DNA of 64,000 bases from Asparagopsis taxiformis (lineage: Eukaryota; Rhodophyta; Florideophyceae; Bonnemaisoniales; Bonnemaisoniaceae), in assembly GCA_030407315.1 (NCBI GenBank), contig JALQPE010001702.1:116177-180176 (forward strand), written 5' to 3'. The notes beneath the pieces were generated by a model. The model worked only from the letters and a program-made list of their open reading frames with translations, did not search any database and was not told the DNA's origin. A program made the translations under genes and the position numbers. Of this stretch, positions 29,290-57,994 are shown piece by piece (positions within the stretch are counted from its first letter, which is position 1; every line of letters begins with the position of its first letter).

Positions 29290-29337
29290 TCGTCTGTGTT
29301 TTCGGAAGTGGACGCGGACGTCCAGTCTCTCTAGTAC
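29290..29337 (+). repeat. Left terminal inverted repeat of giant element
   Basis: About 47 bp matching the reverse complement of 52369-52416 with some six differences. The inner half contains the palindrome GGACGTCC. Confidence 0.65.
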
Positions 29338-29410
29338 GGGTCCTAGTCGGCCCCGAGATTTACTAGAACAAATGAACGTCCGCGTCCAAAAAAAAATAAA
29401 AAATTTTTGG

Positions 29411-29636
29411 ATGCGGACGTCCACTTTCTCTAGTACGTTCGGCGGAATACTAGGGCCCGACATCCACTTTCTCTAGTACATATGGCGGAATACTAGGACC
29501 CGACATCCACTTTCTCTAGTACGTTTGGCGGAATACTAGGACCCGACATCCACTTTCTCTAGTACGTTTGGCGGAATACTAGGACCCGACATCCACTTTC
29601 TCTAGTACGTTTGGCGGAATACTAGGACCCGACATC
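29411..29636 (+). repeat. 43-bp subterminal tandem repeats, about five copies
   Basis: The unit contains CCACTTTCTCTAGTACG and GGCGGAATACTAGGACCCG. The CCACTTT phase recurs at 29421, 29464, 29507, 29550 and 29593, exactly 43 apart. The first copy carries the GCGGACGTCC of the terminus. Probably transposase-binding sites. Confidence 0.85.
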
Positions 29637-29762
29637 CAGTATACAATATATCAGCGAAAACCGGGAGGGAAGAAATTACAGCGGATGGTAAATTCAGGGC
29701 CCATATCGGACCGTATTTTATTCTCTCATTTAGGAAACTGCTCGTATACAATACGACTCTCT

Positions 29763-29899
29763 AGAATAGGGAATACATATCTGGTCAGAATAGGAAATAA
29801 ATACCCGGTTAGAATAGGAAATAGGTATCTAGCCAGAATACGGAATATGTATCCAGCCAGAATACGAAATACGTATCCAGCCAGAATACGAAATACCTG
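29763..29899 (+). repeat. 24-bp tandem repeats, about 5.5 copies
   Basis: Units of the form AGAATASGRAATAnnTAtcyrGyc repeat every 24 bases with gradual divergence. Confidence 0.8.
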
Positions 29900-30229
29900 T
29901 CAGCATATCGTCGATCACCCATCTCCCTCACTATCCCGTTCTCCCTACCATCCGAACGCCATGCACCACCATTCGCACATACTTCAAGAACCCTCACGAC
30001 CTTGATTACAAAAAATCCGCTTCTTCCCAATACCATCCCCGCTTTCCTCGACACCACCCCAGCCCATTAAATCATCAAGAATCAAACACGAACATGGTCA
30101 GCAAAATCTTACACCACTTGAAACCCACTCTCACTTCTATCGTATGCCCCAAAATATACACATACCAGAAACACCTCACAGCTTCATTCCCCATCTTCCT
30201 AGATCCCTTCTTCACTCTCCTTCAGTCCT

Positions 30230-31245
30230 GCCGTTCCTGCTTCACCACTCCTGCATCACATACACAACATCAGAATCAACCCCAACAGTCAGATTCAAAA
30301 GCAACGCTTACCACGACAGATATCCTAGAAACTTCCTTACTTACCTCTCATCCATCCTACACACAATACAAACCATGATCCAAAAACCTTGCAATGAATA
30401 ATCAAAGTCAGCAGTCCATATCTTCGCAAAACACATCCTGGCGCTCAATGAAACTTACCTTCTGTCATCACCATTCCTGCATCACCTACAAAAAATCGGA
30501 ATCAACCACAACAGTCAGACCCAAAACCAACCTTCCCTCGCTGCTTACTTTCAAAACTCGCACAATTACCTTCGCTCCACACAATACACACCATGACTCA
30601 ATAGGCTTCCAATGAAAAATATCGCATCAACGGAAATAGTCAGACTCAAAACCAACCTTCCCTCGCTGCTTACTTTCAAAACTCGCACACTTACCTTACC
30701 TGTTCCATCCTGCACACAATAAAAACCATAAATCACGTAATCGTGTAGCCAAGAAAAGTAGTCAGCATTCCGCATCTTCGCACAACCGGTCTGGGCGCCC
30801 AATGTGACTTACCTTCCGTCATCACTATTCCTCCATCACCTACGCAACATCGGAATCAATCGCAACAGTCAGATTGAAAACCAACGTTTCCCTCGCTACA
30901 TACCCTGAGAACTCGCAAATGTACCTCTCATCCATCCTACACACAATACAAACCATGATCCAAAAACCTTGCAATGAATAATAATCATAGTCAGCAGTCC
31001 ATATCTTCGCAAACCACATCTTGGCACTCAATGAAACTTACCTTCCGTCATCAACATTCCTGCATCATCTACACAACATCGGAATCAACCACAACAGTCA
31101 GACTCAAAACCAACCTTCCCTCGCACCATACTTTCAAAACTTCACGTACCTCTCTTCCATCCTCCGCTCAATACACACCATGAGTCAACAGGCTTCCAAT
31201 GAAAAATATCGCATCAACGGAAATAGTCAGACTCAAAACCCACGC
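30230..31245 (+). repeat. About 580-bp imperfect tandem duplication
   Basis: The block around 30353-30402 (CACACAATACAAACCATGAT...) recurs at about 30932, and the block AATGAAAAATATCGCATCAA recurs at about 30611 and 31198. The spacing is 579-587. Shorter internal echoes (AAAACCAACCTTCCCTCG) occur several times. Confidence 0.75.
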
Positions 31246-31287
31246 TTACCTCAATGCATACCCTCGAGGGTAGAGGATGGAACGAAG

Positions 31288-31325
31288 GTACGTGCGCGAA
31301 TCTTGATCAAGATTCGCGCACGTAC
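31288..31325. repeat. Perfect 38-bp palindrome
   Basis: GTACGTGCGCGAATCTTGA is followed directly by its exact reverse complement with no loop. A second small palindrome, CCCTCGAGGG, lies 18 bases upstream at 31261. Confidence 0.95.
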
Positions 31326-31926
31326 AAAGCAAAGTCGGTCAAAGAATATCAGTCGGTGATGATGGCGGAGTGGAGCCTGCGGCGTCGACCGGACAGCTTT
31401 CTGCGTCCGCTTAAGTCTTGCTGTGCATACTCGAAATCATCGCCGGCAGTGAGATTGAGTATGGCCCAAGCCATGGTCTCTGATTCCCCGAACAATGAGA
31501 TCCGGATCGAGAACAACAAATATAAACATATAATCATATATATGAGAATCCATTTGCTTTCCTTACATGATCCGTGGCATATCCGCTGTAAAGCACATTC
31601 AGATTCCACGAAGTTCGGAAATAAAAAAGTTTATTATTACAAATGAATTAATTGAAAATTCATCTCCCAGGGCAGTCGTTCGTCCTTCCATGCACACGTT
31701 GCCAGCACGCAATGTGATGTAACAGTTGGAAATGATTGAACTCTCGGTTAAATTCCACCGTTGGGATGTCAGCTGGAGTGAGCACAAAACTACTACCCAC
31801 AAAACTACGAACGAACACGTTACATTCCAAGTCTCGAAAGCACCACAAAAATAAAATTGGTCGCATCTGGACGGCACAGTCTCCCCTGTTCAGCTCGCAA
31901 TCCTCCCTTTTGCGTCAAAACTCGAC

Positions 31927-34900
31927 ATGGAATGCAAGTATGAAGGGTGCTTCTACTACTGCGTAGATGCTTATGCGCTCGCGCTGCATGAGCGAACGTG
32001 TCGCTACCGTTTCAACCCCTCTCCCCAACATTTCAACAACGCTCGTGTCCCTGCCGTCACCCATGAGCCTGCTCGAAACGGCGACCATGATTCCCCGCAA
32101 CCCAGCTCCCCAGACCCAGAATCTGGTCGTGCTTCCTCCAGCGACTCACCCTGTGACGCTCCACTGCCACCAACCTCAACCCCCTCCCGCGCAGACCTCC
32201 TCGTGCAATCCCTCGCCGCCAGTCTCACAACCCTCGAGTACAAGGCCGGCGCTGGCCGCGTGAGCGAAGTCATCACCATCCTACAAGACCCCGCATTCTC
32301 CCTAGAAAAGTTCAACAGCGCCGTTCGCACCGTAGAAGAATGTCGCCACGTTACCGCTTCCATGGTCGAAACACATTTCCGCACCGAAGGTTACAAGAGC
32401 CACATCATTCCAGACAAAACTGGTAAGTACTCGGCACAGCTGTACCTCCGCGACCCAGTCGACATGCTCCGCAGGCAGTTAGCACTGGCTAACGACCAAA
32501 ATACTCTCTTCCACCCCTCCCCACAGACCGCCCCAGACGGCACCGCAATATTTTCTCATCCCCTACACACAGAATTCGCGAAAACGCTGCACCAGGTTAC
32601 TAGACAGCGCGTGCAGCTCTCGGAAGATCCACAGGTCGTATGGGCAGAGGAAACTGATCCCACCGCTTCCTCCTTTGCCGGCCTCCTCCAAGTGTACTCC
32701 GACAAGAGCAGCACAAGCCTCAAGAGCTCCGCAATCGTCGCATACCCCATACACGTCACACTGCTCAACTTCTCCGCCCCCCTCCGTCGCCACTGCATCC
32801 GTACCGGCCTCACCATCGTCGGGTATCTTCCGTACATTGTTAACCCTTCGTCCAACGCCTTGTTCGGTGATGAAATGCCGACAACCTCTAGTTCTGCTAG
32901 TCGCGCTCGCAAAATTGATATTCTTCATAAAGCACTCGAAAAAGTGTTTTCGTCCCTATCCACCGCGTTCTCTTCCGGGTTCCCCTGCACAGACTCCACT
33001 GCAACTGCCCGCCAATGCTTTCCCATCCTAGCCAATTATTGCTGCGACTTTCCAGAGGCCAAAGAGCTGTCATGCACTCGCAACAGCACTACCACCACAC
33101 ATCCCTGCCACCGCTGCTACATCCCCGCCACTCAACTTGAATCCAGCGCGCCACACCAGCCCCGCTCCCTCGATGATACACGCTCTGCACGCCAAGAGAG
33201 CGCTCAGGAGCATACAACTGCTCCGCTCGAAGCTCTCTCCCTCCTCGAACAACACTCTGTCCTCGAATCGACCGCTCTTTTACCCACCAACAGTCCCCTA
33301 GACCCCTACAACATTTTCTCCTTCGAGCCTCTGCACAATCTCCACCTCGGCATCTCAAAGCTCATCAAACAGTGCATTGTCCACCGCCTCAGCTCCCCAG
33401 ACCTCACCACCACCACTGCCTCCCATTCCGGGACACCTCGCACCTTCAAGAAGGTGAAAAAATCCATCCTCGCCGGCTCAAACAGCATTCTGTCCGCTAT
33501 CGAACGCGACTACTACATCACCGGTCTTCATGTCGACTTCTCCAAGGGTGAGAAGGGCACCAATTTGAACGGCCTCTTCACGGAGGACGGCATACGCGGC
33601 ATGCTCGCAGCCAAAGACTATCACCATGTCGACATGGTGTTCCCTTTCATCGCAGCATTCATTGACACATGCTGTGACGAAGTAGATACAGCCCCCCTCA
33701 CTTCCATCTGCACGCAATACTCTGACCTCGTCGCATGGGTCATGAAACGCGGTCGCATCAAGCACTGGACTGCCGCCGAACTAGAAAGCCTCCAAAACTC
33801 CATTTCCTATTTCAAACAATCAATGCTCTCCACCCTCGGCCCATTCCACACCACAGGTCTCAAAACTTTCAAGTTCCATCTTCTAGACCATCTTCCCGGT
33901 GACTTGCAGAGATATGGCGCCCTGGAACACATTGATGCAGGCCCCTACGAACACTCGCATCTTCTGTTCAAACAGAGTTATAGGAAAACCTCTCGAAGGC
34001 GCTCCACAGCCATGGAAGAGACTATTCGCCACATGGAATTCTCCTTGGCCACTCCAACTGGTCATACCCCATCGAACACATTGGGAAACGCACGCATGAT
34101 ATCGCCCACAGACGGTGCAGTACTCGTTCGCGACGGATTCACCGTTGCACTGCACGACTTTGCCTCCCTGCTGCCCGATGCAACCCTCCTCGTTGCAGAT
34201 ATCGACGGACAGCCCGATCCTGCCACTCTTTTGCCTCTGCACAACTCCTCGTTCCCGTCTGGCACCATAACGCTATTCCAGCAACTCGGTGACACAGCTG
34301 CACAAGCGTTCCTCACCCTCGCTAGACTGCGCGCCACGGCAGAAGGCCCTCCAATACATGACATGGACATTTCCGTCACCGTGGTAAAGTCCGCCTACGT
34401 CATGGGAGGGTACGTCCCAGATGCCGACGACTTTGACCCGCACAGTGGCATGCTTCGCCCCACAAACGTGTCGAGGCACAAGCAGCAGCGCGTCTTTGCA
34501 ACTTCATCATTCGGCCCCGCAAAGAGATCGCAGTACTCCTTTGTCGTCATCTCCGGAACTGCCGATGACTACAGAACCATATGGGTAGGGCGCGTCCTGG
34601 CACTGGTACGCCTGCAGTCTCCAAACCTGTTTCAACCTGTAGAACTCGCTTTCGTTCAGTATATGACCTGCTTTGCCCCAAAAACCGCTGTGGAAAAATC
34701 ACTTGGGTGCATTTGTTTAAAGTGGTCCACATGGGACCCGGACAACGGATCCGTTGACAGCAATGACACTGCATCCCACAGTGCAGGTGGTCCTTGGTTT
34801 GACCTCATTCCTGCATCTACTATATCTGGCACCGTGCACATCGTACGAAGTAACTTTCCAGTCAAGCCATTTACGAAACAAATGCACTGGTCGGACCACC

Positions 34901-34968
34901 GTTTCTATCTCAACCGCTTCTACACCAACACTGATTACCAGTTCACAGATGATAATGAAGAAGAATAA
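31927..34968 (+). CDS. Plavaka/CACTA-like transposase with N-terminal C2HC finger
   Basis: A single open frame of 1013 aa. Residues 3-25 form a C-x4-C-x12-H-x3-C finger. A long Ser/Pro linker follows. Around residue 370 is NYCCDFPEAKELSC and then PCHRCYI, like the D-x-P-E and C-x-x-C block of Plavaka-type transposases. Around 465 is FEPLHNLHLGISKLIK, which parallels the D-x-M-H-x-x-x-L-G motif of tnp2-type transposases, with Glu in place of Asp. Around 650 is KFHLLDHLPGDLQRYG followed by AGPYEHSHLLFKQSYRKTS, the RNase H-fold region that carries the last acid. The C-terminal 200 residues look like an added beta-rich domain ending in an acidic tail. The frame is undamaged. Its stop is 77 bases from that of the next, opposing gene. 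Confidence 0.55.
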   Translation: MECKYEGCFYYCVDAYALALHERTCRYRFNPSPQHFNNARVPAVTHEPARNGDHDSPQPSSPDPESGRASSSDSPCDAPLPPTSTPSRADLLVQSLAASLTTLEYKAGAGRVSEVITILQDPAFSLEKFNSAVRTVEECRHVTASMVETHFRTEGYKSHIIPDKTGKYSAQLYLRDPVDMLRRQLALANDQNTLFHPSPQTAPDGTAIFSHPLHTEFAKTLHQVTRQRVQLSEDPQVVWAEETDPTASSFAGLLQVYSDKSSTSLKSSAIVAYPIHVTLLNFSAPLRRHCIRTGLTIVGYLPYIVNPSSNALFGDEMPTTSSSASRARKIDILHKALEKVFSSLSTAFSSGFPCTDSTATARQCFPILANYCCDFPEAKELSCTRNSTTTTHPCHRCYIPATQLESSAPHQPRSLDDTRSARQESAQEHTTAPLEALSLLEQHSVLESTALLPTNSPLDPYNIFSFEPLHNLHLGISKLIKQCIVHRLSSPDLTTTTASHSGTPRTFKKVKKSILAGSNSILSAIERDYYITGLHVDFSKGEKGTNLNGLFTEDGIRGMLAAKDYHHVDMVFPFIAAFIDTCCDEVDTAPLTSICTQYSDLVAWVMKRGRIKHWTAAELESLQNSISYFKQSMLSTLGPFHTTGLKTFKFHLLDHLPGDLQRYGALEHIDAGPYEHSHLLFKQSYRKTSRRRSTAMEETIRHMEFSLATPTGHTPSNTLGNARMISPTDGAVLVRDGFTVALHDFASLLPDATLLVADIDGQPDPATLLPLHNSSFPSGTITLFQQLGDTAAQAFLTLARLRATAEGPPIHDMDISVTVVKSAYVMGGYVPDADDFDPHSGMLRPTNVSRHKQQRVFATSSFGPAKRSQYSFVVISGTADDYRTIWVGRVLALVRLQSPNLFQPVELAFVQYMTCFAPKTAVEKSLGCICLKWSTWDPDNGSVDSNDTASHSAGGPWFDLIPASTISGTVHIVRSNFPVKPFTKQMHWSDHRFYLNRFYTNTDYQFTDDNEEE

Positions 34969-35045
34969 ATCTAAATCGCAGCACTCTATTGATAATGTAC
35001 TACATGATAAGCCTTCTAGTCAACGTCACATTTACTGCACTAATT

Positions 35046-37330
35046 TCAACCATCCTCCATTACGCCAAAACCGTTATCAGCAGTGGCTGCATGGCGCCGC
35101 TCCATGCCCCCATACTGTGGGGCATTGATTTCGACATTCAGGTTTGCACTCAGGTGTCCAGCATATGGGTCAACGACGAAAAGTTCTGCGCCAATTAGTC
35201 CTTGCGCAATCACACAATCCATTACAGCACCGAGGTTTGACGTAATATGCGATTGAATCCAATCCTCGGACACTAGAACAAGTGATGAGCAGCGGTTTAC
35301 ATCATCAACGACATGAACAATTCCAGACCCCTCTCCGCTTTGCCACACTTCAACAGCCTCTCTCGTCACAGTACGGCTTGCAAACACATGCCGTGACTGT
35401 GCACTAGTCCGCTGTTCGCTCTCGACAACGTCCGTTTCTTCCCTTGCTTGCGAGCCTTGGAGACAAGACATGCAGTACACCACCATACCAACTAATTGCT
35501 GAAAAGCTACCCCCACATATTGACTGTACCGCCTTGTAAACTCCTTCTGCCGTGCACCTCCTTTCCCCTTCGGTTCATCCAAACACTCCACAGTAGTCAC
35601 TAGCCAAGCATCCAGGCGCGCCAGCGTTAGTATGCTCGTCTCTATGTCCATTACTTGTTCTGGTCGTATCGAATAACCCCTGAAGATGTCCAGCACATTC
35701 ACAGCTACTCGGTTGTTAAACCATGCATCACCATTCACTTCCATTTCGAAGCTGTCAGGAACCATGCCTTTGCTGTATCGCAGCTCTGAGAACGGTGCCG
35801 TTCGCCACCTCCCCATATCCAAATCACCGTTGCTTTCCCGTTTCAAAAGCTTCTCAGACGCTTCGCGCTTTTGATCCTCTCGCTCGTCCATCTCAGCTCG
35901 CGTCGTCAGCATCGTGCATCTAGACATTAATTTCGTGTACCCCAGCGAACCGAACAATCTGTCCCTCGCATTACGCTTCCGTGCACTCATCACGTCGGAC
36001 AGTTTCTGCGTCACCTTCACTTTCAATTCCTTGCTCCCCGCCACAGCCTCTTGACAGCACACACGCTGCTCCTCATCGGAAAACACATCACACCACGGAC
36101 TTTGACGCAGTACGTGTCGCACCAAGTCATTCAGCAGATCACTCTCGTCCCTGTACGAAGGTGTATACCACTGCAGATTCTTGATGATATAGCCCGGAGG
36201 GGTAGCAATATATCCTACACCGTTTTCGCTCCAAAGTGTCCCTTCTACCGGCTCTACCTCGATGGTACGTCCAGTCCAACGTCTCTGCGTTTGTTCCGCT
36301 ATAGGGTCCAGCTCCATAGTCTCGTTCTTGCACCACTTTGTCAGGTTTTCCTCAACCGCCCTAAGAACTCCAAGGTATTTCACAGGAATGGCTTTCTGTA
36401 TTTTCGACTTACCGCCACCGTGATCACTGATTCTACCTGTTCTCGCAATTGCAGTAAGGCTGGCATTTTCCGCCTGCAGAGTCTTCACCTTAGCCTCCAA
36501 CGCAACTATCTCCGTGGTGAGCGCCTTGTTTGCTATGTCCTGGCTAAACACTTTTTTTCCAGCTCCGCGATCTTCTTCTTCTGCGCATTGATGCGACTCG
36601 CCATTAAATCGATGGATTCCGGCGGATGCAACCTCTCTGCCCTCACCGTCCCCCCATCTCCCACGCTATCGGGAATATGATGTCCTCCATCGGCAATAGC
36701 CTGACGTCGCGGGGGCGTTACGCGCATATTTGGCACCAATGACAGTCTGTTGTGACGAGGCCCGCACTCCGGCTGCTCTCTCCCCTCAGTACCACCTGAC
36801 CGCCGATGATAGTTGGCATCCTGTGAACGTTGCTCAGAAACAACATCCCTTGCCGCTATCCTCGGGTCCCTGACTGCATTACCTGCTGGGGCTGATGTAC
36901 TCGGCATAGTTGGCGCAGTGGGGGTCACAGCCTCCAGTGTCTCGCGAACCCCCGGCTGGGACTCCGTCTGCAGCACCTCCGCATCTGCCAACCCGGGAGG
37001 AACTACCTTTGCCATAGCACTCTGCCGCAATTCCAACATGTTTTGAGCCACTATCATGTCATCATCATGATGTTCACTGTCCCTGCGAGCACGCTTGCCT
37101 CGGTCAAGCCCCATCTCTCTCCGCGCCGTTCCTCCTTCCTCACTTTCTCGCTGCGGATCCCCAGTTCTGCGCCGGTCCGTCTTGCGACTACCGGACCGCG
37201 GTTCAATGCTGCCGGTAGGCCCAGACCGCTTCTTCGCACGGGATTGTCGGGCACTCGATACAGCAGCTGCTGACCGGTTTTTCTGGAGGCCCGGAGGCTT
37301 TGGAGCTTTCTTCGCAATACGCGGCGGCAT
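35046..37330 (-). CDS. Coiled-coil protein of unknown function, one frame change at a slippery heptamer
   Basis: Two overlapping frames act as one gene. The upstream frame (37330 to 36533, 265 aa) is Arg/Ser/Pro-rich and ends in a coiled coil (INAQKKKIAELEKK). The downstream frame (from about 36551 to 35046, about 500 aa) continues the coiled coil (LTTEIVALEAKVKTLQAENA), then a conserved-looking globular part with RYSKGMVPDSFEMEVNGDAW and IRPEQVMDIETSILTLARLD. At the crossing the coding strand reads GG AAAAAAA GTG. The heptamer A_AAA_AAG (36557-36551) is in exact phase for -1 slippage, and the zero frame stops six codons later. A lost A would look the same. I recognise no family. It lies between the transposase and methyltransferase genes of the giant element and may be an accessory DNA-binding protein. 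Confidence 0.55.
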
Positions 37331-37550
37331 AATGAAGCCTTCCCGGAAGCGATGGAACGATTGAGTTGCACGAGATACAAAAAAGATTGCTGTATAGTGT
37401 CGGTAACCACAACGGTCTGCGATGAACGTTCAGGTCAGGTCAAGTACCGGAGAATACGCCAACAGCCCAGATTGTATACGGTAGGCAGTCATCAACAGTA
37501 TTTAATGAGGTACAATTACAGCTGTCGAGCTAGGCCGCGAGCACCCCTAT

Positions 37551-37758
37551 GTCCGGAAGACGTCCTGATTTGAATTAAAATTTGGGCTATTCTCAAAAAC
37601 ATGCACATGTGAACATGTTTTTGAGATGGGGGTGTGCCGTACGGCACAATCGACCCGCTGAAATCGATGTTTTTTGCAATATTTTTTTCTGCCCTGAATT
37701 GTAGAATTTCTGGGCTGGACAGCAATGCAACTGAGCTGGACATCCACCGGGCGTCCAT
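37551..37758 (-). repeat. Palindrome-rich MITE, copy A
   Basis: An inverted copy with the complete far end (GTCCGGAAGACGTCCTGATT). Internal landmarks of the family are GTGCCGTACGGCAC and the hairpin CTCAAAAACATG...CATGTTTTTGAG. It sits downstream of the methyltransferase-SET gene. Confidence 0.85.
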
Positions 37759-37990
37759 TTCAACTTGGTCTTGTATTTTGCATCTGCACGCATAACAGCA
37801 ACCAAGCAGTCAGGTTCACTGCTCGGACGAAGTGCACCTAGAGTGTGAACGATTGGTTTTTGACAGGCGAGTACTGCTCAATAGGTTTCACCCTGGACTA
37901 ATGGTGGCTGGACATGCTGCATTATATGATATACTTCAACTCTGGAACGTAGCTTTATTTGTAGTCGAAATGAAAACATCTTTCGTGACC

Positions 37991-40900
37991 CTAATTCCAT
38001 GCTCTAAACGCTGTCCCATAATGAACGTAGAGCTCCTGCCCCGGACGGATATCGCGGATTGCACGTACTACAATGATCTTCGGATTTTCTAGGTCCTTCG
38101 CCTTGAGCTTCTTCCCCGTCGAACCGCTGCTGTAGTTCTCGACAAACTCGACGTTGGCCATCCGCCTGGTGTCTTCCGCCGGAGTGTCCTCACCTCGCAA
38201 ATACCGCGGGTCGTTGATGAACTGCGCCGAACAGAACGGAGCCGGAACAATCCAAATTGGATGCTCGATGTTTTCGTCGTCCTCCGCTGTTGCATACAGC
38301 TTGATGGCATACATCAAGAATGTTTCCTTCGTTATCGCCATGTGACCCTCTCCGTACGCGAACCTCATCGACTCCTTGCTCATATCAGAGTACACAACAG
38401 TTCCGTAGTATGCACATACTTCGTCGCCAACATTAAATGTCTGTTCAGCGAAGAGCCCTCTTCCTGCATTTGGATGCTTAATCAGCGATGGTCGAACGCT
38501 CAATTTTTTCGCAACACAATCGTGTGCCCGCATCACGCGAGGGTTTTCAGTTTGCAACCAGCGGCGCAGGGAAGGTGGCCAATAATGTACCGGTTTTTCC
38601 ATGTGCTCGTGCGACGCAATCGACTCTGGGCACAGCTGCCAGAGGTACTGCCGAATATATTTCGGGAACCTCTGGTACAGGGGAAGGCCAGGTGGGGGTT
38701 CGATGATCCTGCGTTCCCTCTGCGTACGCATCGTGACAGAGGGGGACGCCAAGAACTTCTCAGCACTCTGTTTCGCTTCTGTCGTGACCCTCATGTCAGT
38801 GTTGTTTGAAAGAATTACACGTGACATGACTGCACACAGCTTTGGAAGCGATCGTGCCACACACAATTTGTCCATGTCACTGCCGACGAAAACACGGTGC
38901 TCAGGCAAGCTCATAGCTGCTTTTCCCGTTGCGAAAGTGCCAGAGAATGGATCGACAACAATATCACCAGGCTGTGAATGCTGGCTGATCAACTCCATCA
39001 TGAGAGCGACGCTCTTCTGCTCTGCACGAACTCTGACCGTAGCACCGGTTGTGCTCCTTGTTCGCCACACCATCTCATTCGAATCGATGGCGGGCATATT
39101 GATGGTGACGTTGCACCACGCCGGGTACGTGCCGTCCATGTATCCGTGGTTCCTATAGGCCACCATCTCGCTTCCAGTCTTGAACGGAACACCTCGCTTC
39201 CAGAAGTGGATAGCGACCTCTGCCATGTTCATGCGTTGGTACCTCTTCCGCCCCGGCATTTGATAGAGGTGCCCAGGTAGTCGGACAAACAACAGAGGTA
39301 CCTCGTCAACGAAGAAAACTGAATTCCGAACGACGTCCTCCTCCTCTCTCCTCGTCCTCCTCCTCCTCATCCGCACTTTCTTCGCCACTGTGCTGCGATG
39401 CTTCGGAGTCCGAATTCATGGACGTAACCTCTTCTTCATCCGACCCGTCATCACTGGCAGCAGCATCGGTTGGGCCTTCTGACTGCGGTCCTTTGTACGT
39501 TTCCAAGTAATGGAACCATTCGTAGAACTGCAAAACGGAGCAGAACACGATGCCGTGGCCACCGGGGCGCAACAGCTCGTCAAACACTTCGATGCTAGCC
39601 TGCATATCTTCTGCAGTTAGCCTGTCGTACGAAGAGTTGGAATCGTTCCTCTTACGACGAACATTGTAGGGCGGATCAGTCAGAATGAGCTGAACGTTGC
39701 CCGTGATGGGCACGTGTTCTCGGCTCTCGTCGGCACTGACCAAATCTTCGAAAGGGACGTCGTACACCCGGCAATACTGACTCATTTTCGAAAGAAAGTC
39801 CTTTGCGAGAGCCTGCCCTTCACTTTCCTGCTCTTCTGTCGCATGGGGTGACGGTGACGGGGGAGACGGCCCTTGGGCAGTAAGACTGGTCCTCCCAGGT
39901 CCAAGTTGAAGCCTGGTTGTGTGTCTTGTCGACGGAACCAAACCTCTCCCTCCTGTGTTGCGACGAGTGGGAGTGTCATCAACCGGCTTGGGGACCTTTT
40001 CTGCGTCCGCGGCTTGTGGTGCCGGGCGGAGGACAGCCATAACGTCTTCGTCGAGGGTGTCAAAGTACGCTGGCAGCTTGTCCGGATTTCCGCTTGACAA
40101 GTATATTTCCAGCGCCCCCCAGCGGTCGGACTCCGGCCAGGTGTACAGGTCCGGGTTGACGATAAGAAACTGCAACCGGTCGAAGAACTTCCTCACAAGG
40201 TCCCTAAATGCACTGTGCTGCGCACTGGTTCTTGTCTCTACTTTTCCACCATATCCATCAGGATGAGATAGGGGAGCTTTGTCGTGGTAGAGATCTAGCT
40301 TCTGCTCCATCGGTGCGAATAGACCTTCATCGAGCACGTCAAACCAATGCTCACTGCTGTCGAAAATGATGTACGGCGCCATCAACTCTTCGAAGCTGGA
40401 AAACTTTGCGGCGAAGGCCACATCGGTCCAAGCATGGTATAAAACTTGAACCACGTAACAAGCTCGATTAGTGCTTTTCCGATGGGCTGGGACGCGTGCG
40501 GCTTCGTTCCCCTCTTCGGCCGCGTCGCCTATTCGGCGACGCGGCAGGTTCTTGTTGTGATTTCGGATGATAGACAACGCTTGGAAATACATCAATACCT
40601 CGAACGTTTCCGGTGGAGCAAGAACGAAGGCGCTTGGTTCCCCGCGCTGCGGCGCCTGTAGTGGCGAAGGAAGCATGTTACATCCAATAAGGAAGGTCTG
40701 CGGCACGATCCCAGAAAGGATGCAGTGCTCAACCCATTGCCCGATACGCTCATCCTGTCTTGAAAACTCGGCAATCGGTAATGCCAGACGAACAATCTGC
40801 TTGGCTCGCTCAACGTTCATCTCTGCCATGACGATTTCGGCAACATCCGCCTCGACTCCAGCATTCTTCGAACGACCGCTGAAGGCCATGCTGAGTCGAC

Positions 40901-41195: not shown

Positions 41196-41520
41196 AATGG
41201 AATGAGTGGAAATTCGGTACAGGATGGCGACCGCTCGGCGAGACAGTCAAATTTGACGACGTATCTCGTGACGTTTGCACTCTTTCGTGAGGAACACTGG
41301 TTGATATCGAACGGAACAGAGTATACGGGTACACAGCACTGGAAAGGTCTTGAAACCCGTAACCGGTGTAGGTAATAAGTTGTGACGGATACGTGGTAGA
41401 GAAAAATTTTAAAAAGATTGTGATTCCCTGTCTTTGAGTGTTGTACTGCACGGCCGCCATGGCGGCTGTGACTGCAGTCACATAGGTTGTCACAGGTGCA
41501 TCACGCTTACCAGGTGAGCG

Positions 41521-41727
41521 ACATCCGGACGGCCACTGGACATGGGGATGTCCAGCTCAGATGCATTGCTGGCCAGCCCAGAAATTCTAATATTTCGGGC
41601 AGAAAAAATATTGCAAAAAACATCGATTTCGGCGGTCGATTGTGCCGTACGGCACATCCCCATCTCAAAAACATGTTCACATGTGCATGTTTTTGAGAAT
41701 AGCCCAAATTTTAATTCAAATCAGGAT
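41521..41727 (+). repeat. Palindrome-rich MITE, copy B
   Basis: It lies upstream of the methyltransferase-SET gene and is inverted relative to copy A, so A and B bracket that gene. All internal landmarks are present. Confidence 0.85.
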
Positions 41728-43087: not shown

Positions 43088-43292
43088 GATGGGTCGATTG
43101 CAGGCTTCAAGCCTAAGTTATGCTAGGGAGAAATCTTCTTCCGTGTTTCATCATGGTCCCGCCTTACTCCCTCAACACAAACACTACTCACCCATCACGT
43201 TACTCATATTCCGTGCACTTTATATTAGTAGTGAACCCGCCTGCTTAGTTGCTGCAATGCGTGGATGTAGGCAGCACACGACCAACCTGAAA

Positions 43293-43487
43293 TGGACGTC
43301 CGGTGGATGTCCATCTCAGATGCACTGCTGGCCAGCCCAGAAATTCTAAATTTCGGGCACAAAAAATCTTGCAAAAATCAACGATTTGGGCGGGTCGATT
43401 GTGCCGTACGGCACACCCCCATCTCAAAAACATGTTCACATGTGCATGTTTTTGAGAATAGCCCAAATTTTAATTCAAATCAGGATG
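43293..43487 (+). repeat. Palindrome-rich MITE, copy D
   Basis: It begins TGGACGTCCGGTGGATGTCC and contains both palindromes. It starts the second unit of the direct repeat. Confidence 0.85.
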
Positions 43488-44880
43488 CAGATATTCGTCT
43501 TCTAGCATTGTCAGAACACATTCGTATAACCACATTTGGAGAACCTGAGCCCAGAGCTATCGGTTTTGGCGGGGGCTAAGCCATATCTCATATAATCAGT
43601 AACTACTTCCCGCCAGCTGAGTGGTGGAACCCCTGCTATTTCTACCAACGAGACATACGGGGTGTCAACTCGGCAATCGTATATGATTTGGGTGCTAAAT
43701 TTATTCAAGAGACGAATGGGCTTCGAAAAGGAGCCCAACTACGTCTTCTTGTGATCCATGGGTATAGGACTACTCTATTCTTCTCCAGGCTTCCACCATA
43801 GCCTCCTCCACCACCTCCGTTAATGGATCGAATATCCGAACCGCACCTCAACATGCTTTTCTTCTCATCCATGGGTACTGACATCTCACATGTTCTCCAA
43901 GCTTCCACCATAGCCTCCTCCACCTCCGTTAATGGAAAGAATATCCGAACCGGACCTGAACATGTGTTTCTTCTCATCCATGGGTACTGACATCTCACAT
44001 GTTCTCAACATGTGAGATGTCAGTACCGGAGAAGTTCTCCAGGCTTCCTCCGTAGCCACCTCCTCCACCTCCGTCTGTGGGAATCAACACAATATCACCA
44101 CTGCGTCTTACCTCACATCCACATCTCTCCGGGATGAAAACGGACGGACGACATAGGGTTTGTAGACGTTTAGAATCTTGTTAGAAAAAAGTAAACGAAA
44201 GAGAACTTCTCTTTCATTGAATGATATCTCGTCCCTGTCGCAATATGTTCCATTTTCATTTTCTCGGGTTGCACACCCATCATGGGTGATCAAGGCCTGG
44301 ATCGAACCCTCCGAGGGTCTTCGATGGATAGGACAGATAGTGGAAGGCTTTTAAGCCTGTGACCAAGCGGCTATTGATTGGTTGGAGGAAGGAAATTACA
44401 GAGGAAATATAGCTGAGTACGGTGCTCGCGATAGCTGTTAGGTTAAAGTCAAATATGTTTTTCGATTATTTTTCGTACGGAAATGCCTTGCAAAAGACGA
44501 TGCTTTGTCGTTCTCCTGGAGGGAGTCCGTTGCATTGCACTCAATTCGAGAGCATCGTCATGAAGGAGAGGATTCTTTCTGCTTGTTAGAATCGGTTTAG
44601 AGCAGATAGCTAATGCATTACTGGCCAGCCCAGAAATTGTAGAATTTCGGGCAGCAAAAAAATTGTAAAAAATCAACGATTTGGGCGGTCGATTGTGCCG
44701 TACGGCACAACCCCATCTCAAAAACATGTTCACATGTGCATGTTTTTGAGAATAGCCCAAATTTTAATTCAAATCATGGTGTCTAATTTGGCCACAACGG
44801 CCCCAGGCACCGGCCGCCGCCCCGAGCGGGGTCATCATGGCTTCTGTAAGCACTAAATGTAAGGCTAAATGGCGTCTGAC
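43304..44880 (+). repeat. 1.5-kb direct repeat, unit 2
   Basis: Second copy of 41546-43087, including MITE copies D and E, the Gly-rich subrepeats (about 43790-44080) and a local inverted repeat at about 43987-44020 (TGACATCTCACATGTTCTC / mirror). Confidence 0.8.
44614..44784 (+). repeat. Palindrome-rich MITE, copy E
   Basis: Same truncated left end as copy C, as expected from the direct duplication. Confidence 0.8.
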
Positions 44881-44972
44881 GAACGGTCAATTCCAGGCTC
44901 AATACGCCAGGGACAGGTCTTGGTCCTTGTTCCATCATGGTCCCACCCCACTCTCTCACGACCAACCTGAAA

Positions 44973-45170
44973 TGGACGTCCGGTGGATGTCCAGCTCGAT
45001 TGCACTGCTGGCCAGCCCAGAAATTGTAGAATTTCGGGCAGCAAAAAAATTGTAAAAAATCAACGATTTGGGCGGGTCGATTGTGCCGTACGGCACACCC
45101 CCATCTCAAAAACATGTTCATATGTGCATGTTTTTGAGAATAGCCCAAATTTTAACTCAAATCAGGGTGT
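44973..45170 (+). repeat. Palindrome-rich MITE, copy F
   Basis: Complete left end and both palindromes. It lies about 340 bases upstream of the ParB-like gene start. Confidence 0.85.
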
Positions 45171-45509: not shown

Positions 45510-48500
45510 ATGGCGGATACGCATTTCAGCAGTTTGTTTTCAACGGTTTGCGGCGATCAAGTGAGCGCGTCAGCGGAGTCGCGCGGTCTCAAGCGCGGCG
45601 TCGATGTCGACTTGTTTGCGGACGTGGACGGTGCGGCTGTGCATATTGGGACGGCTTCGGTGAGCACTGCTGGTGGCGATGTTGGCCTTCCGCGCACGCT
45701 GCACAACCACAAGCTGCCGGAAACCGACGAGGCGGACTATATCGTCGTGCGCAACATTGCGACTAAGGACAAGTTCAAGGACCTCCCGTTCCCGTACATG
45801 TTTGATGGCGCCGAGGGACCGCCGGAGACGATGGGTGGAGCATACGCCGCGGCGTTTTACCCTTGGGATACTCGGATGATGCGCCCCGCTGCGGAGGATG
45901 GCCCTAGCGACATTCGTACCCCTGCTGCAGCGTCAAACTTCAACGCAGCGACGAACCAGGCCAGCTCGGGACGGATGCCCAGTACCGGTCCGGCAGGCGA
46001 AATCACTGGTTCGGGGGGTACGAAGCATCTAGCACGCTCCATTCCGGTTTCGGGAGGCACGAAGCGCCCTGCTCGCTCTGCAAGACCCTCCAGTGGAGGC
46101 ACGAAGCACCCTGCTCGCTCCAACGTCACCGAAGCTACTACGCAGGACGTAACCGAGGTGGACGACGAACCGGAGGTGGCGGAAAGCATTCGTGAGCAGC
46201 AGGGGACGCAAATTACGGTGCCCAAGTTTGTGACGTCGGATTACGTCGGAGAAGGAGCGACTGTGTTGGTGAGGCAGCTAGTGGAACCGGCCGTGACCCT
46301 TCGGGATGTGAAAGAAGACCACGTGGAGGACCTGCGCAACAATATGTTGGCTGTGGGGTATGTGAGCTCTTCGCGTATCACTGTGACGGTGCTGAGGTCG
46401 CAGAACACGCATCTGCCCGCCGACACGCGTCTGTTCCAGAATGGCAAATTCCATGCCAATGCGAACGTGACCGTGATCGACGGACTGCATCGTCTCAATG
46501 CTATGCATAGCATTGCGGATGACTTCACGCGCCTCACCCGTATGCACAGAACCAAGCTGCCACAGGACGCAAACCGCTTGCGCTGGGTTACTCAGCCTCT
46601 GGATGTGTACTACCTTCGCCGCAAGGACGACAGTGATCTTCAGCCTCATGAGATCATCCACAAGAGTGCAGAGTCGAACCATACGACTGGGACGCAACTG
46701 ACGGAGCGCTCCCTGGTTCGAATCTTGTCGTCCATCCAGCAGTTCATCCGTACGATTGCTGTTGCAAATAACGTGGAAAACGCTGGCGACTTGCGTGAGT
46801 CTGATGTCATCCGAACATTGTTCGAGGCGCAGTTCATGGGGATAATGAATTCAACGAACACGGCCCGGCGGTGGACGCGTTTGGCTATAGCAACGCTGAA
46901 GCATCCTGTTCTCGACGAAGTGTTGCGTGAGCTGAACAATTCCGAGCGCCGCAACGAGATTGGGATAACGCACCTGGACCACAAGATAGTGCGCGAGTTG
47001 CTGGAAGAAAACTTTGTCTTCGTCTTGCGTGGTCTTTCGGAGTACTTGAACCCTGCTCATGGTGGACGTCCGGATGGACGCTTTGACGTGAACGACTTCT
47101 ATACATACGTCCGTCGCGTGACTGCAATAGCAAATTCTCTGTACGCTGCGTTTGGGCGCCCAAAGAGTATTATGCGCAAGTCATTTCTGAGCACAGAGAT
47201 GGCAATTGGGTCGGTTAAGCAGCCGAAGGAGTTGCAATGGCATCTCACCAATGCCATTGCAATGTATAGAGGGGACGACCGGAGCAGTGAGGTTCGAATG
47301 CGACGGAGAACCACGCGTTTACAGGATTTGGAAACGAACTTGAAAGAGTTTTTCAATCCGACATTGAAGAAGAAGACTAAGGCTCGACGCAAACGCCGCC
47401 CTTCTGCTGCCAATGTGAGACTCACTCACAAGAAGCAGCGGAATGTCGAACATGAGCCTGCTTCGCATGGCATCCGCCGCCGTTCACAGCGACTTCGCTC
47501 GACGGGGAGCACACGCCTCGAGGAAGAAGAGCCGGTTGTGGTACAATAATCCGCCGGGGAAGAAGAGCAGGCTGTTGTTGATAAACCCACCGATCAACAA
47601 CAAGCCACTGCTTCCGGTGATGAGGTTGACGAAGACTCCGCCCGTTCCCCCGATTCTGCCGTTGAGATTGTCCCCCAAGATAACCAACGTGCTGGTGCGA
47701 CTCCCTCCAACCAAGAATCTGTCCATAACGTTTCGGACGAGGAAGAAAACAACAGTGCAGATGAGGGCCATGTCAAAAGCAAGGGGGTCCGCGAAGTGAC
47801 AATTACACTCACTGTTCCGGAAGGAGTCGAAGTCGATGAAGACGGTTACATCGTTCGTGACTCTCCTTCTGAACACGACCTCCTGTTCGACGACCGTATG
47901 CCATCTCTTCCTGACGATTTCGAAGTCAAAGACCGAGCCGAAGGGCATCATCTGGCGCAGCGTCCCGCGGACGTCATCGCATCGGTGAGGGTTGGCTGTC
48001 TGCCTCCGATTGAGCTCAGGTTGTTATTGTAGAGTGTGGAAATCGATGAGGAGGGCAGAGAGGTGAGGTATTTGAAGCAAGTGGCGATGGACCCTGTGTT
48101 TGAGGGGCTGCATATTCCGGAACAACATCGGGCTCGTCATCTTGTTTTGGAGATCGACACCATCTATCCGATGTTTTTCGCAGCGTGGAAGATGGCTGCC
48201 AAGGCGATGTGTGAGCCTACATCGACGTTTCTACCCTCGAGGCTGGACTTCGCTCAGGTTGCGCGAATGTCTACAAGCTGGAAGGATTCGTATGAGGCCG
48301 GCACTGGTATGGCGTACTTCCACAATTGCCGAACGGAAATCAACGAGCGAGGGTATACGGTGATGCACAATTTCGCGGATGTAAGCTACCTCGATGCGTC
48401 GGACAAGTTCCCATTTGACTTGGGTCTCATGGAAGAAATTCCTAACCAGGAATTGTTTCGGTACTTTTTGGGAACGTGGGAGGGGGAGGAGGTGCACAAG

Positions 48501-49466
48501 GACCCTGGGAACCGGCAGCTGTGGAGTCCCATTGTCAATACAGGGGACGATGAAACAGATGAGAAGAACCGGAATGAGGGGAGGGCTCGCTTCACGTCTA
48601 CGCGCCACTGCCTGGTTGACTATGCCGAGAACGATGAGACGCATATCGACCAGTTCAAGTTTGTGACGCGGCGAGCCCTGCTGGATGTGTGGTTGGGAAT
48701 CCTTTTCCGGCTGATAGGGCTGGAGGAGTGCGGTTTACCGGGAGAAAAACTTGTCATGCCGGCATCTGGGGGACGGTTTTTGATAACGGGAAAGGGGTGT
48801 CCTCGGCAGGTCCCACACAATGATTTCCCTGTTCCTCCTCGCGACCGCAAAGATCAACTTCCGGGTTACTTTGTTATTGCCAACGGAGATGACCCATTCC
48901 CTATCTGGGTGTGTCCAGGGTCCCACAAGTACGTCTTTTCCAAAGCGCTGGAATTAGATATGTACGCCAAGACGATGAAGCTGAAGAAGGTAGTCGTTCC
49001 GCCACGTTCAGTCTTCATCGGTCACGGCCATGTACAACATGCCGGGGCAGGGCATGTCGACAGAGTTGTGTCACACACGACAACGAGGTATCACACGTAT
49101 TTCAGGAATGCGTCGTATCCGATTCCCGACAATGTTTCGTTTGGTTTCATCAGGCGGTTGGGATTCGAAGAAGAAGTAATCGCCAATGCTCCGCGCCGGT
49201 CTGCCAGGCAAAGTCAACCGGCACCTGTCAATGTTCGCCACAAGACAGTTGTTCCCATCCCGGTCAAGAAAGATCGTAGGCCAAAGACAGGGCAGCTCGG
49301 AATCATGCGGATGAAGACGACAGAAGCTCCCAAGAAGAGAACCCTCACACCGGGTGAAGAATTCATCTTGAGCTATTCAACTCCACGGTTGCCGATAACG
49401 CCTATTCTGCCGGGAGATCCTGAATATGATGAGGACGAAGACGAAGAACAATTTTCCGACGGCTAG
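45510..49466 (+). CDS. ParB-like domain protein followed in frame by a 2OG-Fe(II) dioxygenase
   Basis: From the ATG at 45510 the frame stays open to 47984 except for a TAA at 47547-47549. A 48-nt GT-AG intron (47985-48032) then leads into the rest, ending at 49466. First part: three SGGTKxxARS-type repeats (about residues 170-205) and a ParB/sulfiredoxin-like motif VTVIDGLHRLNAMH (about 320-333), then a helical and basic tail. ParB-fold domains bind or cut DNA. Second part: an acidic linker and a dioxygenase core with VPHNDF (His 48816, Asp 48822), a distal His in VQHAGAGH (49038) and TTRYHTYF for the 2-oxoglutarate end. Related oxygenases act on nucleic acids or proteins. The TAA may separate two genes, be read through, or be a null mutation. 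Two separate products are the main alternative. Confidence 0.6.
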
Positions 49467-49750
49467 ATAGCTTAACAACTACTACTTTGGTAAACAATTA
49501 TCGAGAATATAATCATCTCCTTTATCACTTTCAATCTATGGACCTACTATAATGTACTTCCGTTCCATGCTTTCAAACTAGATTGTCCATTCCCTCGTGG
49601 GTTGGAGCATGATTTCCAGGACGATTCCCTCACATCTCTAGACTCGATGGTCTATGGTAGAAATAGCAGAACAATTGGGTTTGTACGTGCTTCATCGCCT
49701 ACTTGCTTCCGGTAATGTGTGGACGTGCACGATACACGATCAACCTGAAA

Positions 49751-49947
49751 TGGACGTCCGGTGGATGTCCAGCTCAGATGCATTGCTGGCCAGCCCAGAA
49801 ATTCTACAATTTCGGGCACAAAAAATATTGCAAAAAACATTGATTTGGGCGGTCGATTGTGCCGTACGGCACACCCCCATCTCAAAAACATGTTCATATG
49901 TGCATGTTTTTGAGAATAGCCCAAATTTTAATTCAAATCATGGTGTC
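49751..49947 (+). repeat. Palindrome-rich MITE, copy G
   Basis: It lies downstream of the dioxygenase gene, direct relative to copy F, with all landmarks present. Confidence 0.85.
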
Positions 49948-50250
49948 TCATTTGGCCACAACGGCCCCAGGAACCGGCCGCCGCCCCGAGTGGGGCCATC
50001 ACTGGCTTCTGTAAGCACCAACTGTAAGCCAAAATCGCGTCTTACGAGGGTTCGATTCCAGGCTTTAAGCCTAAGTTATGCTAGGGTGACATCTTTTTCC
50101 CTGTTTCATCATGGTCCCGCCTTATTCCTTCACGACAAACACTACTCACCTATCACGTTACTCATATTCCGTGTACTTTGTATCAGTAGTGAACCCGCTG
50201 GCTTAGTTTCTGCAATGCGTCGATGTAGGCAGCACACGACTAACCTGAAT

Positions 50251-50449
50251 TGGACGTCCGGCGGATGTCCAGCTCAGATGCATTGCTGGCCAGCCCAGAA
50301 ATTCTAAAATTTCGGGCACAAAAAAATTGTAAAAAATCATCGATTTGGGCGGGTCGATTGTGCCGTACGGCACAACCCCATCTCAAAAACATGTTCACAT
50401 GTGCATGTTTTTGAGAATAGCCCAAATTTTAATTCTAATCAAGGTGTCT
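50251..50449 (+). repeat. Palindrome-rich MITE, copy H
   Basis: It begins TGGACGTCCGGCGGATGTCC, with both palindromes intact. Confidence 0.85.
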
Positions 50450-50700
50450 AATTTGGCCACAACGGCCCCAGGAACCGGCCGCCGGCCCCGATCGGGGGCT
50501 ATCACTGGCGTCTGTAAGCACCATCTGTAAGCCGGAGCCGGCTGCCGCCCCGATCGGGGCTATCACTGGCTTCTATTAGGACCAACTGTAAGCCAAAATA
50601 GCGTCTTACGAAGGGTCGATTCCAGGCTGAATACGTCAGGGACACGTCTTGGTCCTTGTTTCATCATGGTCCCGCCCCACTCTCTCACGACGAACACTAC

Positions 50701-50780
50701 TGGACGTCTGCTGGATGTCCAGCTCGATTGCATTGCTGGCCAGCCCAGAAATTCTAAAATTTCCGAAAAATCAATTTGGT
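50701..50780 (+). repeat. Palindrome-rich MITE, copy I (truncated)
   Basis: Only the first 65 or so bases are recognisable (TGGACGTCTGCTGGATGTCC, then GCTGGCCAGCCCAGAAATTC); the palindromes are missing. Confidence 0.75.
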
Positions 50781-50835
50781 GGCCCAGCATCTCCTGTGCC
50801 GAAAATTCCCGCACTCACTTCTGATATACTATATC

Positions 50836-50852
50836 GTAGTAGTAGTAGTAGT
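50836..50852 (+). repeat. (GTA)n microsatellite
   Basis: About six uninterrupted GTA units. Confidence 0.8.
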
Positions 50853-51089
50853 CTAGACGTGTTTCGCACTTGTACGCATCAGGGAAGGCTGCACGGAAGG
50901 TTGAGACTACGCTACTTGTGTACCGCGTCGTCTGAAATAGCGAGTAGTGTTTGTTGTATAGTTGTGGAGTATGCGTCTAGTGGTTTGTAAAGCTTGCAGA
51001 ACGGGATAGGGATGTGGGTGGCCCTATTTTATGAATACATGAGTACCAATATTCAAGGGTGACAAAGCGGAAAGGCATACGTTCATACA

Positions 51090-51850
51090 TGTTTGAGATT
51101 GCATAGTAGAGAAAATATTTACATCGAAATTTACATGGAGCTGATGGAGGTTTTAAGGATGAGGTATGAGAGGAAGAAAATTCTTCTGTGGTATGAGGAT
51201 CTGTTCTGTGGGGGGATGGAATCTTGGGATGGTAAAGGGGGAGGTGGAAATGTACGGAGTGCGGGTTTAGAATGGAGTGTGATTCGGAGAGGAGTGCCGA
51301 CAAGCATATTATGGGGATTGGGGAGACGCTGCGGGGTGTTGGGGTAGTGAGGGCGGAGGAGGTGTTTAGGTGGGACCGTAGGAGGGTGCGGTTGAACGCC
51401 CGAGAGGAGGGGTTTTAGGAAAGTGAGTAGAAAGAGGGGGGAGGGGGTGGCGTCTGTTCTGGCTGTGGTGAGTGGGGATGTGGTGGAGAAGAAGGGGGTT
51501 ATTGTATTTGGGGAGGGAGGGGAGTGGGAGGATGGGTGCGAAGTGGGGGGTTGATATGTGGTTCAGAGCGGGGAGGTTTCTGGGGAGACGGCGGGGGAGC
51601 GGGAGCGTGGGCCGGTGGTGGTGGTGTATACGGTATCGAGGATGCGGATGGCGTGGGGGCATGGAGCAGCTGAGGGAGGGAGGGGTGGAGCAGGTCGGGT
51701 ACGGGATGGGGAGTGAGAGGTTTTGAAGAGTAAGCTGCAGGGGAAGTTTGTGTAGAGGGCGAAGGAGAGGGGTTGAGGGTAGAGGAGAGAGGGTATTGAA
51801 GAACAATACGTTTCAAAGGTGTTGGGGGAGAGCATGGTCGAGGAGATAGG
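51090..51850. other. G-rich, purine-skewed right arm of giant element
   Basis: The + strand is strongly G-rich with many runs of three or more G (for example 51511-51545 and 51436-51452), so quadruplex formation is possible. Open frames on the C-rich strand are compositional artefacts. The skew is the mirror image of the C-rich left arm. Confidence 0.6.
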
Positions 51851-52194
51851 GGGTGTTTTTCCCTATTCTGAGGTAGTATGAGGACTGGTTATACGAAATC
51901 TGTACGGTAGAGCAGAAAAGTAGGTATGGAATGGAGGTGTGCACCGTGGAAGCGGGGATAGGTAGCTGAAAATGCGTGCTAGAGTGGTATTGGGGGTGTT
52001 TGAGGTACAGTACGGGGGAGGTGAGCACCAACTGGAAGGGAGTGTGAGCGAGAGGATGAAAAAATTAAAGACAAAATTGGAGTCGACCGACAAGGGAAAA
52101 TAGAGTGGTCGCCGTGATGGATGCGGACATCCAAGTCGAGCACGGCGGCAGAAATTTCTGGGGTCGAAATTTTTGAATTTCTGAACCGGCGCCC

Positions 52195-52368
52195 GTCCTA
52201 GGTGGACATAGACATGGCGGAAGTCCATCCCGAGGGGGACATCCGTGGTACTAGAAACAATGGATGTCGCCCTAGTAATACTAGACGTACTAGACCGCAT
52301 GGACGTCCGGTTCTAGGCGGACATCCAAAAATACTGGAGAACATGGACGTCCGCCTAGTAATACTAGG
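52195..52368 (+). repeat. Right subterminal GGACGTCC / TACTAG repeats
   Basis: Degenerate units with GGACGTCC or GGACATCC alternate with TAATACTAGRYGTACTAG. They mirror the subterminal repeats of the left arm. Confidence 0.7.
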
Positions 52369-52416
52369 TGTACTAGAGGTTGTGGACGTCCGCGTCCATT
52401 TCCGAGAACACAGACG
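52369..52416 (-). repeat. Right terminal inverted repeat of giant element
   Basis: Ends ...TCCGAGAACACAGACG, the reverse complement of the left end with a few differences. Followed by TA. Confidence 0.65.
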
Positions 52417-57950: not shown

Positions 57951-57994
57951 CGGGTGGGCCGACTCCTCTCCACTCAACGGACACGCGACGCGCG

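Follow-up and report, generated by a model that had tools for sequence, protein, structure and literature searches.

The stretch of DNA analysed here (the window) is 64,000 nucleotides long and corresponds to bases 116177 to 180176 of contig C1582 in an assembly of 141.5 Mb and 3156 contigs. It holds a large element with inverted ends, a transposase gene of the Plavaka type and three further large genes, among them genes for a methyltransferase fused to a SET domain and for a dioxygenase-like protein. The features are given below with the strand in brackets.

29291-52416 (+): the element as a whole, 23,126 bp, decayed and with additional repeat sequence inside
29291-29324 (+): left terminal inverted repeat, 34 bp
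29416-29638 (+): left subterminal array, a 43-bp unit repeated 5.2 times, with GACATCCA and TCTAGTAC motifs
29763-29896 (+): left subterminal array, a 24-bp unit repeated 5.6 times
31855-34968 (+): transposase gene, PF18759 (Plavaka), 1037 amino acids (aa) from stop to stop
35046-37429 (-): coiled-coil protein with no assigned function, two overlapping frames in the window copy
37991-41246 (-): methyltransferase-SET gene, a DPPY DNA methyltransferase (N6/N4 type) fused to SET, two overlapping frames in the window
41485-45170 (no strand assigned): dispersed internal non-coding repeats, with relatives inside the element at 37533-37837 and 49696-50763 and beyond its right end at 52683-52897
45510-49466 (+): fourth gene; its protein has an IDGxHR motif resembling ParB and, at the C-terminus, a dioxygenase-like HxD...H...R domain
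52248-52382 (-): right subterminal motif cluster, the left-end motifs mirrored and less regular than at the left
52383-52416 (-): right terminal inverted repeat, 34 bp, two mismatches to the left repeat

Ends, copies and insertion sites

The termini of the element read 5'-CGTCTGTG...CACAGACG-3'. Matching inverted ends about 23 kb apart had been described in the original prediction, which was made from the sequence of this stretch, and the two 34-bp repeats bear it out; its right boundary (52416) is exact, and its left boundary (29290) lies one base before the true start. The mirrored subterminal arrays that it pointed to were found as well. All nine copies of TCTAGTAC in the window, against 0.60 expected (0 of 100 shuffles reach nine), lie within about 350 bp of the element's two ends, six on the plus strand at the left (29330-29608) and three on the minus strand at the right (52248-52377). 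GACRTCCA is enriched in the window too, with 28 occurrences versus 4.9 expected, some of them in internal repeats. Many copies of the dispersed non-coding repeat lie within the element, in either orientation, and the repeat is also present outside it.

Copies of the element were then read on other contigs. Those on C254, C474 and C690 align collinearly with the copy in the window across the element, with about 170 bp missing at the left end of C254 and about one repeat unit missing near the right end of C690, while those on C619, C1011 and C2885 are collinear with it over the stretch that their contigs hold or that is still intact. The element measures 21,685 bp in C474 and 21,305 bp in C690, and the window copy is longer because of its extra internal repeat sequence. 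Genome-wide, a tag for the transposase gene occurs 1020 times and a tag for the methyltransferase gene 949 times (at most two mismatches), and the controls gave no occurrence. For 23 of the 35 exact methyltransferase tags listed (contigs C18 to C254), a listed exact transposase tag lies 5.9 to 6.6 kb off in the expected orientation. A pattern that fits either end matches the genome exactly 2404 times (1204 plus 1200), and the reversed pattern never does (0+0). Pairing was read from 99 of 100 listed ends among the 2404, one hybrid end being dropped; in 13 cases a plus-facing end had its next neighbour no more than 35 kb away, and 11 of the 13 formed inward-facing left/right pairs. If truncated copies are ignored, about 1000 copies of 21 kb are estimated to make up about 15% of the assembly.

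The insertion itself could be read at two sites. In the genome, 40 scored places match across the joined flanks of C690 and 40 across those of C360, and nine of them were read. At C360, all five relatives read have the empty site TTAGGC-AT-ACAGCC, and the occupied site reads TTAGGCAT/CG...CG/ATACAGCC; at C690, the empty site GGGGCAGG-AG-CGCG is present in all four relatives read, and the occupied site reads GGGGCAGGAG/CG...CG/AGCGCG. Insertion is thus precise, with a 2-bp target duplication that is AT at C360 and AG at C690. The copy on C1653 has a target of the same kind as that on C360 (duplication AT), so that three of the seven paired copies have a matching 2-bp duplication, two of the three at the same target. 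CG precedes nearly every end read, the exception being the left end of C1653, which is without the C. The two empty sites rule out CG as the target duplication and indicate that the element starts with CG and that the duplication lies outside it.

These data indicated that the ends pair recurrently, that collinear copies with near-identical open genes exist on several contigs and that the cargo travels with the transposase. The four genes stand in the same order in copies on other contigs, as had been proposed for checking, and the paired ends, collinear copies and linked tags exclude for the family that the ends go unpaired elsewhere or that the genes are independent insertions with unrelated boundaries. 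Together with the empty sites and the Plavaka transposase, they uphold the view of a self-contained mobile element. The original prediction had also called for other copies and empty sites, and these were found for the family (2404 ends, two sites) but not for the window copy. The latter is flanked by AT at the left and TA at the right, that is, by no target duplication, and no empty site surfaced for it, all 40 places scored per search falling on other query flanks. The flanks of C474 and C2609 were also queried for empty sites, and only two partial C2609 matches were obtained, the rest belonging to C690 or C360. By eye, an open frame seemed to run through the joined C2609 flanks, and no weight was put on it. 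We make no claim that the window copy is a clean insertion; taken singly, it could be a chimera.

Genes of the element

The transposase matches PF18759 with an E value of 2e-24 and 86.8 bits (cut-off 26.3) over profile positions 24-318 of 325, and CHRC and HNLH were seen by eye in its translation; the two histidines of HNLH are spaced by 2, where Plavaka has the motifs C(2)C and H(3-4)H. Pfam includes a KDZ model. KDZ membership was rejected, since Plavaka is the sole transposase model at E<=0.01 among the nine open reading frames (ORFs) scanned against Pfam and the duplication is 2 bp, not the 8 bp of Zisupton; of the Plavaka/CACTA and KDZ types named in the original prediction, the Plavaka type is the one supported. 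The duplications (AT at C360 and C1653, AG at C690) agree with the 2 bp of PlavakaA and the 2-3 bp of PlavakaB, both in the CMCT clade. The termini given for these groups (5'-TGT..ACA for A and CATCA..TGATG for B; Kojima 2025) are not matched by CGTCTGTG...CACAGACG, and we therefore filed the element as one with a Plavaka-type transposase, belonging to neither PlavakaA nor PlavakaB.

The four large genes that had been proposed were all recovered as transposase, coiled-coil, methyltransferase-SET and fourth gene, with three of the four split in the window copy by a frame change or stops. In the copies on C254, C474, C690, C619, C1011 and C2885, one uninterrupted frame encodes methyltransferase-SET (1083-1084 aa) and another the fourth protein (1364 or 1417 aa). 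Of the best matches scored, 54 of 90 for the methyltransferase (hand count) fall in open frames of 1030 aa or longer, and 58 of 92 for the dioxygenase in open frames of 1350 aa or longer. A 670-aa frame spans most of the coiled-coil gene in C474, C690 and C2885; its first residues lie in a different frame, and the intact form is not certain. The coding identity of copies to C474 averages 99.6-99.8%.

The methyltransferase-SET cargo is supported by both of its domains. The methyltransferase part matches PF01555 (N6_N4_Mtase) at 57.2 bits (cut-off 26.7), and the SET part matches PF00856 at 29.6 bits in C474 and 31.6 bits in the window (cut-off 22.4). DPPY precedes the S-adenosylmethionine (AdoMet)-binding motif, which, with the N6_N4_Mtase domain, is the arrangement of beta-class adenine methyltransferases. 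In the PDB, the nearest relatives of the methyltransferase domain are the adenine-specific DpnA, CcrM, RsrI and MboIIA, and those of the SET part are EZH2, KMT5A and KMT2A/B. Six proteins matched among 8000 candidates scored out of a larger set. P0001 is 99% identical, P0002-P0004 (28-33% identity) keep both the methyltransferase and the SET domain, P0005 (27%, source jgi) combines an N-terminal ParB-like motif, IDGAHR, with methyltransferase and SET in one protein, and P0006 (25%) stops before the SET part. The architecture is therefore found again in proteins of other origin that are 27-33% identical, and DPPY is kept in all seven aligned rows, one of which is a near-identical copy. The fusion in P0005 differs from that of the element, its ParB-like motif standing beside methyltransferase-SET and not beside the dioxygenase.

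The start of the fourth gene was taken as the Met near 45510, and its window copy has two in-frame stops (47547-47549 and 48030-48032). Its dioxygenase domain has four relatives, one 98% identical and three 31-38% identical. H243, D245, H317 and R333 (numbered from window position 48090) are invariant, and the HxDF, H and RYH motifs are kept, in all five alignment rows, one of them 98% identical to the query. By its sequence, the protein has the HxD...H...R residue pattern of the 2-oxoglutarate (2OG)-Fe(II) dioxygenase superfamily, whose spacing we take to fit as well. The window domain has no Pfam match up to E=10, to 2OG models or to any other family, and its profile found nothing better than E=1 in the PDB, the four matches listed being viral envelope proteins. 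TET/JBP identity was thus rejected for want of detectable similarity in either search. The ParB-like part has no match in Pfam (E<=10), in PHROG or PADLOC (E<=1) or in the PDB, and no match to a ParB model in NCBIfam; none of the profile libraries put a name to the dioxygenase domain either. The IDGxHR motif is common to the fourth gene and P0005, the latter matching a ParB PHROG at E=0.13. Of the ParB-like/dioxygenase label, the dioxygenase-like active-site motif stood, and the ParB-like part is a resemblance of motif; both names are motif-based.

Relatives of the whole fourth protein were scarce. P0010 has 370 further residues before its dioxygenase domain that are at best weakly similar to the fourth gene, and it gave a sub-threshold match to DUF7705. 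With words from the first 500 residues only (the dioxygenase lying outside this query), no relative at E<=0.001 appeared among the 7996 scored, and a scan of prokaryote genomes for the dioxygenase (22 pattern stretches) found none.

Short relatives and surroundings

Four of the 11 end pairs span at least 20 kb, and all four contain a transposase tag; a listed methyltransferase tag lies in those on C52 and C67, that of C88 is among the best methyltransferase matches, and that of C100 is in neither listing. The pair on C100 (173865-203012) spans 29 kb with two oppositely oriented transposase tags and is perhaps a nested or palindromic copy. The other seven pairs span 10.0-15.6 kb and have neither listed exact tag inside. 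Pieces of a 10-12-kb class with the same ends were read (C90:32909-44374 and C12:264414-275483; L149-L151). C90 has a left non-coding stretch and internal repeats in common with the large element, and about 0.9 kb common to C90 and C12 is mostly absent from it. The short class carries a 138-aa open frame without a Pfam match, and its copies are probably non-autonomous passengers that use the ends of the large element.

Directly right of the element, window positions 52578-52894 share 97.8% identity with sequence from inside the short class (L150), which places the element beside or inside another such sequence. Farther right lies a reverse transcriptase open frame (RVT_1, 58385-60007), and the ratio of observed to expected CpG is 1.56 for 52417-64000. 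To the left are genes for MRS2, ELL, a sigma-70 factor, a 2-oxoacid dehydrogenase acyltransferase and Gar1/Naf1, a set that suggests nuclear host DNA. The assembly contains phycobilisome genes, with 11 of 13 matches on contig C469 (taken as plastid). The host is thus probably a red alga, as had been suggested, although phycobilisomes alone do not exclude other lineages that bear them.

Possible roles of the cargo and comparison with known systems

On balance, we favour the reading that this is a giant, autonomous Plavaka-type transposon which moves by cut-and-paste and was amplified recently, and whose enzymes would most likely keep its own chromatin expressible and mobile despite host silencing, a role that would fit the high copy number. 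As in similar transposons, the transposase would bind the subterminal TCTAGTAC and GACRTCCA arrays and mobilise the element, and its family suggests a cut-and-paste mode. From their domains, the methyltransferase-SET protein would methylate DNA adenine and protein lysine, in histones or other proteins, and the dioxygenase-like protein would remove or convert a mark, with its N-terminal part perhaps acting as a guide. We infer from the predicted proteins that the cargo may mark the element's own DNA or chromatin. The survival of catalytic motifs in relatives of about 30% identity appears to be a stronger sign of use than the ratio of non-synonymous to synonymous differences (pN/pS). Over 7 transposase, 8 methyltransferase-SET, 11 fourth-gene and 8 coiled-coil copies, this ratio comes to 0.36, 0.17, 0.32 and 0.40, respectively, with the window copy left out and shared differences counted more than once.

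Several observations weigh against this reading. The tags count gene copies, fragments included, and not complete elements. For 12 of the 35 listed methyltransferase tags there is no listed transposase tag at the expected place, which for one of them, on C18, precedes the contig's first base. Four of the seven paired copies (window, C474, C2609 and C221) are without a matching 2-bp duplication, likely owing to ectopic recombination or chimeric assembly among many near-identical copies. The pN/pS values come mostly from copies picked from lists of best protein matches, a choice that biases them downward, and few differences were available, for example 23 synonymous and 13 non-synonymous ones for methyltransferase-SET. 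Finally, the CpG ratio is 0.97 in the element and 1.05 in the host DNA to its left, showing no depletion and no trace of cytosine methylation as an opposing mark. Adenine or histone marks are therefore better candidates than cytosine methylation, and young copies would show little CpG depletion in any case.

A more far-reaching version, which we put forward only tentatively, makes the cargo a private epigenetic circuit. One protein would write N6-methyladenine and a histone mark, and the second would find and oxidise the DNA mark. The pair would form an old module, spread by horizontal transfer, whose parts fuse anew from lineage to lineage, the ParB-like motif being found beside the dioxygenase here and beside methyltransferase-SET in P0005, and it may have let the element reach about 1000 gene copies, perhaps 15% of the genome.

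A cargo directed at the host or at rival elements, as a general anti-silencing or host-chromatin-altering kit, seems rather unlikely to us. In Coprinopsis, oxidised methylcytosine marks retrotransposons too, and non-target-specific action of transposon-borne dioxygenases is speculated on in the available text of the source (Kojima 2025, PMC12730594); the conservation of the cargo among copies is compatible with self and non-self targets alike. Somewhat less likely again is a service to transposition itself, in which adenine methylation would time or strand-mark excision and SET would methylate the transposase or another protein of the element. The adenine-specific relatives of the methyltransferase and the keeping together of transposase and methyltransferase genes are in line with such a service, and Dam methylation times or strand-marks Tn10 excision, but the SET part matches histone enzymes.

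That separate insertions or an assembly error produced this region is very improbable. In a fragmented assembly with near-identical copies, some copies are likely to contain chimeric joins or to have undergone ectopic recombination, as the four without matching duplications would suggest; for the family, however, this reading is already refuted by the same gene order on separate contigs, the empty sites and about 1000 tags for each of two genes. Least probable of all is an endogenised virus or polinton-like element: the large size, the bacterial-type methyltransferase and the coexistence of giant viral and Plavaka repeats reported for Amoebidium in the accessible part of PMC11244446 would suit it, but the element has a Plavaka transposase, short terminal inverted repeats and 2-bp duplications, none of its nine scanned ORFs has a Pfam match (E<=0.01) to a family of capsid, polymerase or packaging proteins, and viral contigs yielded at least 64 loci with short methyltransferase-motif matches only and no dioxygenase relative.

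Taken as a favoured reading, the Plavaka-type transposon with chromatin-directed cargo can be set beside systems known from other element classes. DIRS retrotransposons carry a methyltransferase domain, and SETMAR joins SET to a mariner transposase; to our knowledge, neither unites a DNA methyltransferase and SET in one protein. We found no DNA transposon with a DNA methyltransferase-SET fusion, with or without a dioxygenase, in the open-licence literature, subscription papers being mostly outside the search. Already in print, going by the accessible text of the sources, are TET/JBP-bearing transposons, dioxygenase-bearing Plavaka (PMC12730594) and giant Plavaka repeats (PMC11244446).

The closest likeness is to the fungal TET-positive PlavakaB, whose dioxygenase is proposed to lift silencing (Kojima 2025, PMC12730594). 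As far as the available text of that paper goes, the two have in common a Plavaka transposase, 2-bp (or 3-bp) duplications and an oxygenase cargo, whereas the present element resides in an algal host, has a dioxygenase that is not detectably TET/JBP, ends in CGTCTGTG and not in CATCA or TGT, adds methyltransferase-SET and has a very high copy number. Kyakuja/KDZ elements with TET/JBP, known from Coprinopsis, likewise join a DNA transposon to a dioxygenase, and CcTET, a relative of the Kyakuja-borne enzymes, is reported to act on both 6mA and 5mC; unlike the algal element, they have a transposase without similarity to Plavaka and, for Zisupton, an 8-bp duplication, and the available text mentions no methyltransferase for them (PMC12730594).

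The giant Plavaka repeats of Amoebidium resemble the present element in being large multi-gene blocks with a Plavaka transposase and intron-poor genes, and red algal and dinoflagellate hits to the block genes were noted by the authors; the cargo named for the repeats is tyrosine recombinases, whereas methyltransferase-SET and a dioxygenase-like protein, defined ends and empty sites are found here (PMC11244446, accessible part). EnSpm-Plavaka of the green alga Auxenochlorella is also of the Plavaka type, in an alga, and reported as potentially active; the available text makes no mention of cargo (PMC12636532), which the element described here carries. In fungi, transposons proposed to erase host silencing marks are already known. 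If our favoured reading is true, a writer of DNA and protein methylation combined with a dioxygenase, in about 1000 near-identical gene copies, would amount to a natural experiment in chromatin rewriting by a selfish element, and the question of who writes and who removes eukaryotic adenine methylation would be directly testable within one organism by long-read base calling.

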